64,000 bases of DNA from Geothrix paludis (GTDB lineage Bacteria > Acidobacteriota > Holophagae > Holophagales > Holophagaceae). The translations under genes and the position numbers were made by a program. Under the pieces are notes generated by a model, which saw nothing but the letters and a program-made list of their open reading frames with translations, had not been told where the DNA came from and ran no database searches. This document shows positions 2,939 through 5,921 of the stretch, piece after piece (position 1 is the first letter of the stretch; each line of letters begins with the position of its first letter). The stretch spans positions 186,001-250,000 of the forward strand of contig NZ_JAKZLC010000002.1 in assembly GCF_022808815.1 (NCBI RefSeq), in the 5' to 3' direction.

Positions 2939-2959
2939 GCCTCCAGGATGCCAGGGATC

Positions 2960-3160
2960 GATCCACGGGATTGAATCCTTGGTGGACCGATCACTTCTCT
3001 TTTATATTCAATATTTTTACGTCATTTTGGTTCAGGTAGGCCAACACCCCGGTCTATCATCTGAATGATGAACATTGATGCATTTCATGCTTCTAGAATG
3101 AAAACATTGACGAATGGCTCAATAGCCCCCATGATGTATTCCCTTTGACTGATCTTCCAC
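2960..3160. other. AT-rich intergenic stretch between rsmG and ybeY
   Basis: This spacer is strikingly richer in A and T than its surroundings (runs such as TTTTATATTCAATATTTTTACG). It lies between the divergent rsmG and ybeY starts, so it should hold both promoters. Several TATAAT-like hexamers are possible and none can be chosen with confidence. No convincing gene is seen on either strand. Confidence 0.5.
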
Positions 3161-3171
3161 AGGAGCCGGCC

Positions 3172-3900
3172 ATGACTGATACCAAGCTGCCCTTCCAGAT
3201 CGATTGGTCGAGCCGGAGCAAAATGCGTGGGCCTGGCGAGCAGTCCCTCGGGAAGCTGCTTCATAGCCTTCGGGATCGGCTTGCTCCAGGCGCTCAGGGT
3301 GTATCGCTGACTTATGTCGATGATCGCGGCATGAGAAAACTCAATCGCGAACACCGCGGGAAAAACATGACGACGGATGTGCTGAGTTTCCCCTCAAGCG
3401 CTGAAAAGGGGGCGTTCCCGCACCTCGGCGATATCGTGATCAGCCTTCCCACCGCCGAGAAAATGGCCAAGAAGTTCGGTGTCAGCCGGCGCCGCGAAGT
3501 CGAGACGCTGGTGATCCATGGCTTCCTTCATCTCTGCGGCCACGACCACGAAAAAGACCAGGGCGAGATGATGGCGCTCCAGGCGCAGCTTGAGCGCGAC
3601 CTGCTCGAGACCGAACCCCTGTCCATGAGCCTCAAGCGGGGCCGCAAGCCGGGCAGCAAGGTCAAGAAGCTCAAGGACGGCACCCGGGTGGTGGTGACGG
3701 GCCGGGCCGCCGCGGCCCTGGTCCGCCGCGAGCGCGTGAAGAAGGAAAAGAAGGTCAAGGTGCGCAAGGTGGCCAAGCCGAAGGAGACCGTCGCGAAGCG
3801 CGGCCCAGGCCGGCCCCGCAAGGAGGCCGCCGCGGCTCCCGCGAAGCGCGTCCTCCGCCGTCGTCGGCCGAGCCCTTCCCGGAGCGGCGTCATCGCCTAG
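3172..3900 (+). CDS. ybeY: YbeY endoribonuclease with long basic AT-hook-like tail
   Basis: A 242-residue protein. Residues 1-150 are YbeY, a zinc-dependent endoribonuclease needed for 16S rRNA 3'-end maturation and ribosome quality control. The zinc site HGFLHLCGHDH sits at 116-126, and the family segment TTDVLSFP lies just after residue 66. Usual YbeY proteins stop near 150-160 residues; this one continues for about 90 residues rich in Lys, Arg, Ala and Pro. The tail has two AT-hook-like cores, KRGRKPGSK (155-163) and KRGPGRPRK (209-217). The ATG at 3172 is preferred over an in-frame TTG at 3145 because AGGAG lies six bases upstream. The first 100 codons use more A/T-ending codons than the tail. 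The tail suggests nucleic-acid binding (inference). Confidence 0.9.
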   Translation: MTDTKLPFQIDWSSRSKMRGPGEQSLGKLLHSLRDRLAPGAQGVSLTYVDDRGMRKLNREHRGKNMTTDVLSFPSSAEKGAFPHLGDIVISLPTAEKMAKKFGVSRRREVETLVIHGFLHLCGHDHEKDQGEMMALQAQLERDLLETEPLSMSLKRGRKPGSKVKKLKDGTRVVVTGRAAAALVRRERVKKEKKVKVRKVAKPKETVAKRGPGRPRKEAAAAPAKRVLRRRRPSPSRSGVIA

Positions 3901-4827: not shown

Positions 4828-5559
4828 ATGTCCGGCCACAATAAATGGTCCACCATCAAGCACAAGAAGGGCGCCGCGGATGCCAAGCGCGGCAAGCTCT
4901 TCACGAAGATCCTCAAGGAGATCACCGTGGCCGCTCGCCTCGGTGGCGGCGACGTGAACAGCAACCCCCGCCTTCGTCTGGCGGTGGACCAGGCCAAGGG
5001 CAGCAACATGCCCAAGGACAACTGGGAGCGCGCCATCAAGAAGGGCACCGGTGAGCTCGAGGGCGTGACCTACGAGGAAGTGGTCTATGAGGCCTACGGT
5101 CCCGGTGGCGTGGCGATCCTCGTAGAGGCCATGACCGACAACAAGAACCGCACGACCCCGGAGGTCCGCAGCTACTTCACCAAGTTCGGGGGAGAGTTGG
5201 GCGCCCAGGGCTCCGTGGCCTACCTGTTCACCAAGGAGGGCCAGATCGTCGTGGAGCCGGAAGTCTCCGAGGACAAGGTCATGGAAGTGGCCCTGGAGGC
5301 CGGCGCCGACGACGTGGCCAACGAGGGCGAGGCCTGGGTCATCAAGACCAGCCCCGAGTCCTACCAGGCCGTCAAGGATGCCGTGGACGCCGCCAAGCTC
5401 CCCGTCATCGAAGCCAAGATCATCATGGCCCCCAGCACCAGCACCGCCCTCGAAGGCTCCAAGCTCGCCAGCTTCCTCAAGCTGGTGGACCTGCTGGAGG
5501 ACAACGACGACGTGCAGAACGTGTGGCACAACGGCGACTACGAGGAACCCGAGGACTGA
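4828..5559 (+). CDS. yebC: YebC/PmpR-family translational regulator
   Basis: A 243-residue YebC-family protein. These were long annotated as transcriptional regulators; recent work on family members shows a role in translation, easing ribosome stalling at proline-rich stretches. The N-terminus [18 protein letters not shown] is the family signature, and full length matches the usual 240-250 residues. AAGGAG lies upstream of the ATG at proper spacing. The last ten codons ([10 protein letters not shown]) are part of a 178-bp segment repeated immediately downstream, so two extra out-of-context copies of this C-terminus follow the stop codon. No ruvC or ruvA neighbour is present, unlike the common arrangement. 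Confidence 0.95.
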
Positions 5560-5921
5560 GGTCCCGTGCCCCACGCCCTCCGGGGCGGACGCTGAGCGGC
5601 CGGGTCTCCCGGCCGCACGCGTCTCTGGCTGCCCGCGATCGCAGGCCGCACCGCGGCCTGCTCCCACTCCCCCGCTTCGCGGGCTCGCGGAGCGGGGCCC
5701 CCGGCACAACGGCGACTACGAGGAACCCGAGGACTGAGGTCCCGTGCCCCACGCCCTCTGGGGCGGACGCTGAGCGGCCGGGTTTCCCGGCCGCACGCGT
5801 CTCTGGCTGCCCGCGATCGCAGGCCGCACCGCGGCCTGCTCCCACTCCCCCACTTCGCGGGCTCGCGGAGCGGGGCCCCCGGCACAACGGCGACTACGAG
5901 GAACCGGAAGACTGAGGTCCC
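5527..5921. repeat. 178-bp tandem repeat carrying the yebC 3' end and a three-hairpin module
   Basis: Copy 1 begins at 5527, copy 2 at 5705 and a partial third copy at 5883. The first 39 bases of each unit are the last ten yebC codons, the stop and GAGGTCCC. The other 139 bases form a GC-rich module with three hairpins (copy 1: 5596-5616, 5641-5661, 5671-5696). Copies 1 and 2 differ at only three bases, all transitions. The third copy has only the 39-bp part, with two changes. The region between yebC and the carboxypeptidase gene is therefore repeat, with no further gene seen. Confidence 0.92.

Follow-up and report, generated by a model that had tools for sequence, protein, structure and literature searches.

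On sequence comparison, the Holophagaceae, a family of soil and sediment bacteria, have their own variant of the known enzyme YbeY, in which a normal endoribonuclease core is followed by a conserved basic C-terminal arm of putative function. The gene was analysed in a window of 64,000 nucleotides (C2:186001-250000) taken from the 3.41-Mb genome of a Geothrix (Acidobacteriota, Holophagaceae), for which Geothrix terrae SG184 is the closest named record, with a YbeY protein that is 99% identical. The features of the gene, in window coordinates, are as follows.

3172-3900, + strand: ybeY gene, a single open frame from ATG 3172 to TAG 3898-3900 (726 bases plus stop, 242 aa)
3172..3615, + strand: YbeY RNase core, residues 1-148, recognised by Pfam PF02130, TIGR00043 and a fold match
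3517..3549, + strand: metal-binding His box, H116-x3-H120-x5-H126, with the histidines unchanged in all 62 distinct sequences
3634..3732, + strand: motif M1, residues 155-187, KRGRKPGSKVKKLKDGTRVVVTGRAAAALVRRE, AT-hook-like arm, its pattern present in 62 of 62
3733..3795, + strand: variable Lys-rich linker, residues 188-208, entropy 1.63, dN/dS 0.25, pLDDT below 50 from 195
3796..3822, + strand: motif M2, residues 209-217, KRGPGRPRK, with the classical AT-hook core RGPGRPRK
3823..3843, + strand: variable Ala-rich linker, residues 218-224, mean entropy 1.87, dN/dS 0.31
3844..3900, + strand: motif M3, residues 225-242 plus stop codon, Arg cluster KRVLRRRR and terminal RSGVIA

The RNase core

Family matches and predicted fold both identify a normal YbeY endoribonuclease with a complete core. 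The Pfam model PF02130 matches residues 41-140 (8.6e-31, 106.9 bits against a cut-off of 25) and the NCBIfam model TIGR00043 matches residues 30-140 (1.6e-31, 108.9 bits against a cut-off of 45). In Foldseek searches the AlphaFold2 model resembles the solved YbeY structures 1oz9, 7y7o and 1xm5 with E values of about 1e-10 or better; for 1oz9 the E value is 6.3e-12 and the TM score 0.82 on the target. The protein shares its core, its His box, its fold and the conserved motifs with the YbeY family as modelled (PF02130, TIGR00043), whereas the C-terminal basic arm of 94 residues is found in the Geothrix protein and not in the models. An earlier note on this DNA had judged the RNase domain complete by about residue 150, in agreement with the core of residues 1-148, the two family matches and the intact His box. 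It had also described the tail as lying outside the standard family description, and both the Pfam and the NCBIfam models indeed end before it. When residues 151-242 were scanned alone, no family match was found in Pfam or NCBIfam, and no description of a YbeY tail of this kind was found in an open-access literature library (C-terminal extension, AT-hook, Holophaga).

Anatomy of the tail

The tail (residues 149-242) contains 17 Lys and 17 Arg, with 1 Asp and 4 Glu. For comparison within the family, 85 loci were reduced to 62 distinct sequences, some genomes being present in two collections. Among these the net charge per residue of the tail ranges from 0.22 to 0.36, and the tail is built of three conserved motifs spaced by variable linkers. 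M1 has the consensus KRGRKPGSKVKxLKDG(S/T)RVVVTGRAAxALVR, and its positions K155, R156, G157, R158, K159, G161, S162, K165, K168, G170 and V174-A180 are invariant in the 62 sequences. The conserved residues are not just charged, hydrophobic and small ones being kept as well (RVVVTGRAAxAL), and the GRK core of this motif is only AT-hook-like. By sequence, M2 is an AT-hook, a GRP core with basic flanks as given in PMC4822317, and may bind in the minor groove of AT-rich DNA as AT-hooks do. PGRP[RA]K is present in 61 of the 62 sequences; in the remaining one, L087, the gene runs off the end of its contig. The DNA pattern of M2 occurs once in the genome. The linker between M1 and M2 varies from 25 to 60 residues across the family. 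M3 is an Arg cluster ending in RSGV(I/L); the form R[SNT]G[VI][IL]x stands at the C-terminus of 59 of the 62 proteins (L087 is cut, L074 and L081 differ). A basic cluster begins 8-16 residues past the GRP in 60 of 62, a weak sign in so basic a tail.

The two cores that the earlier note had read in the tail, KRGRKPGSK and KRGPGRPRK, are found at residues 155-163 and 209-217. Its wider description of the tail as AT-hook-like or H1-like holds in part: the AT-hook-type cores are there and are conserved, but the tail is more than a low-complexity one of that sort. Constraint is strongest on M1, of about 33 residues, and the AT-hook cores lie within and next to it. The first core is part of this longer, predicted-folded motif (155-187), and a third conserved motif occupies the C-terminus. 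A histone H1-like Lys/Ala/Pro tail without fixed motifs was ruled out, as the sequences of M1 and M2 are fixed. Chance origin of the cores was also rejected: RGRK and GRP[RK] appeared together in 0.13% of 20,000 composition-preserving shuffles, and relatives keep the motifs.

Based on the alignment of 62 sequences, AlphaFold2 placed strands at residues 163-166 and 172-175 and a helix at 178-193, with pLDDT in the seventies, followed by disorder from about residue 195 (pLDDT below 50). For the full-length protein the overall pTM was 0.62 and confidence in the tail moderate to low. The module predicted alone, from 34 sequences, gave the same strands and helix with pLDDT of 84-88 in its middle part. 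M1 is predicted to be a beta-hairpin followed by a helix, an order that suggests a possible likeness to the H-NS/Lsr2-type DNA-binding domain. Structure searches with the module, whose small size allows no firm negative, yielded neither a Foldseek hit with E under 1 nor a VIA-align hit reaching Z 2, and did not support an H-NS-like hairpin-helix. The sequence of M1 had no significant match in the PDB; against Pfam, weak matches to PF17208 ("RNA binding Region") were obtained for 4 of 23 sequences (best E 0.009) and were not relied on.

Selection and codon composition

Mean column entropy over residues 149-187 is 0.37, equal to that of the catalytic stretch 104-133, and falls to 0.23 in M2, against 1.63 and 1.87 in the linkers and 1.13 in M3. 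Pooling within the genus gives dN/dS values of 0.046 (core), 0.048 (M1) and 0.031 (M2), compared with 0.27 in M3 and 0.25 and 0.31 in the linkers. Because dN/dS of M1 and M2 is close to that of the core while the linkers vary freely, strong purifying selection on the two motifs is indicated; by these measures, selection on M1 and M2 is as hard as on the enzyme itself, and on their spacing it is weak.

The G+C content of third codon positions (GC3) differs between the two parts of the gene, with a mean of 0.68 in the core and 0.84 in the tail; the core is lower in 61 of 62 sequences, and the minimum lies at residues 41-60. In the window, the core has a GC3 of 0.72 where 0.88 is predicted from the codon use of neighbouring genes, and the tail 0.94 where 0.89 is predicted. 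A recent foreign join of the tail would explain this gap poorly, as the gap persists family-wide. The first 100 codons or so of ybeY have an unusually low GC3 throughout the family (within 2939-3480 in the window), and a rough codon-based gene call set the start at 3331, missing the true start.

Distribution of the tail

The sample of the order comprised 77 genomes, all of the family Holophagaceae, and a YbeY match was obtained in 68. The tail is carried by 66 of these 68. In the other two (G002 and G003, genus g2, genomes of 0.9-1.2 Mb) the match ends at residue 153-154. No YbeY match was found in 9 of the 77 genomes, mostly fragmented drafts, and a third g2 genome (G001) gave none with the Pfam model. 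The g2 loci without the tail have the same gene order as the tailed loci, namely rsmG on the opposite strand, ybeY, a TPR gene and yebC; among the 85 family loci, rsmG is found in 83, the TPR gene in 82 and yebC in 81, and several of the exceptions are short contigs. In a tree of YbeY cores g2 falls inside the family, with weak support and long branches, which fits a loss of the tail in g2. Members of this genus (G001, G002, G003; L065, L068, L069) have reduced genomes, no convincing Era, and YbeYs without the tail. Further along the locus lies a 178-bp tandem repeat (5525-5921, 2.2 copies, 97% match), made up of the yebC 3' end, stop codon included, and of a GC-rich unit downstream. L031 and L061 each have two of these repeat units, whereas one is present in L035, in L037 and in others.

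The earlier note had allowed that a frameshift or sequencing error might join the tail to ybeY, or that relatives might lack any tail. Neither is the case: the tail is general in the family, as counted above, and the same fusion recurs in many independent genomes in the same gene neighbourhood. Frameshift or misassembly is excluded by the presence of this fusion in named isolates, among them G. fermentans DSM 14018, G. terrae, G. campi, G. rubra and G. limicola.

All ten YbeYs from sister families of the class, in genomes among the listed part of 389 matching genomes (L091-L100), are without the tail. A profile of M1 searched against 297 genomes of the phylum gave matches in 30, of which 26 were Holophagaceae YbeYs with E values of 1e-22 or better, covering 26 of the 27 family genomes (G001 was missed). 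Nothing convincing was found with it in the other 270 genomes; the four remaining matches were short, in large frames, with E of 0.004-0.01, and were taken as chance. A profile of the whole tail matched only ybeY in its own genome, with no second copy found elsewhere. In these searches the M1-M3 tail appears confined to Holophagaceae YbeY.

Conservation across Acidobacteriota YbeYs, the check that the earlier note had proposed, is accordingly partial: the motif-bearing tail is conserved in Holophagaceae, whereas other Acidobacteriota have no tail or a shorter Lys/Ala-rich one without the motifs. The latter were seen in YbeYs of another family (f10), which share a basic Lys/Ala-rich C-terminal extension; it is shorter, lacks M1, M2 and M3, and the length after the His box is 56-75 residues in L102, L103, L129 and L138. 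The phylum survey of tails covered 27 loci selected for long frames, so that no frequency follows, and two of the 27 had no readable core. The f10 tails seem to be of a different kind, which suggests more than one origin of basic tails on YbeY.

Putative function of the tail

The best explanation, towards which we lean modestly, is that the arm is specific to Holophagaceae and holds YbeY on the pre-30S particle or 16S rRNA. The core would carry out the cutting known for YbeY at the 3' end of 16S rRNA and in quality control. M1, as a small predicted-folded module, would form the arm together with M2 and M3, an AT-hook core and then an Arg cluster on flexible linkers. Close to the cut site, the arm could then grip structured rRNA in the immature 30S subunit, and this grip would lengthen the residence time of the enzyme or position it. 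We infer that the ligand is rRNA and that the arm would serve as an anchor in cis, acting on the ribosome. YbeY matures the 16S 3' end, with uS11 and Era as partners, according to PMC7515705 and PMC10582724. Because these partners and the substrate are ribosomal, a basic arm would most simply bind rRNA, and tethering to rRNA is a more economical reading than tethering to the nucleoid.

Several observations are in favour of an RNA-binding arm. They include the strong purifying selection on the motifs beside freely varying linkers and the net positive charge of all 62 tails. Short motifs of a binding type on disordered linkers form the expected pattern, and the 80 C-terminal residues of YbeY are the most basic among 411 predicted genes (464 kb of the genome). 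The sole other protein passing the basic-tail filter on these genes has RNB, cold-shock and S1 domains and is of the RNase R type, so that the two such tails found are both on RNases. This RNase R-type protein (L112:6319-8640, same genome) has a very basic end with a GRPPKK stretch. In E. coli RNase R, the Lys-rich C-terminal domain is reported as essential for recruitment to stalled ribosomes (PMC3949413). The likeness, an RNase with a flexible basic C-terminal arm that in RNase R targets ribosomes, is a functional analogy: YbeY is an unrelated enzyme, not of the RNB/S1 type, homology of the tails is not claimed, and the YbeY arm adds AT-hook cores and a predicted folded module. AT-hooks are described as binding RNA besides DNA, with a preference for RNA where basic patches lie about 12 residues from the GRP core (PMC4822317, PMC11354804). 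The YbeY tail resembles the extended AT-hook RNA-binding motif of Tip5 and PTOV1 in its GRP core and, more weakly for so basic a sequence, in a basic patch roughly 8-16 residues downstream; that motif is described in eukaryotes and is without a counterpart of M1, and RNA binding by the YbeY tail is putative. Against an RNA-binding arm, the YbeYs of sister families and, according to the family models, those of bacteria generally do their work with no tail of this kind. AT-hooks are classically DNA-binding, and no significant Pfam or PDB sequence match points to RNA binding.

A second explanation, which we regard as unlikely, is that the tail does not bind nucleic acid and instead docks on an assembly partner such as Era or uS11. 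An interaction of YbeY with Era, and fusion of the two in some Clostridia, are reported in PMC10582724. In those fusions YbeY is extended at its C-terminus, as in Geothrix, but by the GTPase-KH protein Era, whereas Geothrix has a separate Era and, as its extension, a short basic arm. The hydrophobic and small residues that M1 conserves besides charge would suit a protein contact; M2 and M3, which resemble nucleic-acid binders, speak against it. Era (TIGR00436) scores above the cut-off in 47 of the 50 order genomes whose completeness reaches 90%. Some of these passes, those of G001 and G002 among them, come from adding up adjacent partial matches within one frame of some 520 aa and are not regarded as Era. 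The Era matches in the three g2 genomes, whose YbeYs have no tail, are all weak and partial and lie in frames of this size. However, g2 is one clade and therefore one event, and its genomes are reduced (0.9-1.2 Mb): the losses of tail and Era may be independent, and genome reduction may explain both. Two genomes (G029 and G064) have no Era match yet keep the tail; both are fragmented drafts.

It is also improbable that the AT-hooks bind AT-rich DNA, notably the promoter between rsmG and ybeY, placing the enzyme in the nucleoid or repressing its own transcription. Two features of the window are concerned.

2939..3171, + strand: AT-rich divergent rsmG/ybeY intergenic region, GC 0.455
3107-3135, + strand: sigma-70-type promoter TTGACG-17-CATGAT, with the TTGAC hexamer widely kept in the family

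No other 180 bp in the window are as AT-rich as positions 2961-3140 (GC 0.40 vs 0.696), and equally low GC is found in 23 of 15,455 windows of 180 bp in 464 kb. The 180 bp upstream of ybeY lie on average 0.24 below the GC of the locus in 61 tailed loci, as against 0.01 below in 17 loci of other families, and two g2 loci without the tail (L068, L069) are also without the AT-rich region. This comparison is confounded, as the loci of other families do not have this gene arrangement and those of g2 have little or no gap there. Divergent intergenic regions are in any case AT-richer than genes (mean GC 0.605 for 41 regions, from a rough gene call in a genome sample), and a conserved sigma-70-type promoter alone needs AT-rich DNA. 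M2 is a canonical AT-hook core, but YbeY is an RNase. Bacterial proteins with AT-hook cores include WhiB7, which differs from YbeY in being a transcription regulator. CarD of Myxococcus, another bacterial AT-hook protein, is likewise a transcription regulator.

Much less credible is an autoregulatory tail, in which the arm would fold onto the core or the RNA channel and tune cleavage. For RNase R, the Lys-rich tail has been proposed to contact the core (PMC3949413), but the moderate to low AlphaFold2 confidence in the tail and the overall pTM given above speak against such a fold. A combined scheme is equally a long shot: M1 would be a new small folded nucleic-acid-binding domain and, with M2, would make YbeY a bifunctional protein, a 16S maturase that becomes a repressor of the rsmG-ybeY promoter when free of pre-ribosomes. 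If this were true, the load of rRNA maturation would set the transcription of two genes acting on small-subunit rRNA. Finally, a non-functional read-through or artefact has a negligible chance, with motifs kept in 62 distinct sequences under strong purifying selection.

Significance

To our knowledge, the recognition of its pre-30S site by YbeY is poorly understood. The Holophagaceae arm offers a natural experiment on this recognition, with three motifs as precise targets for mutation. As an RNase bearing an AT-hook, the protein joins the few bacterial AT-hook proteins, and its tail is an example of a long basic tail with a modular build and, in part, strict conservation.
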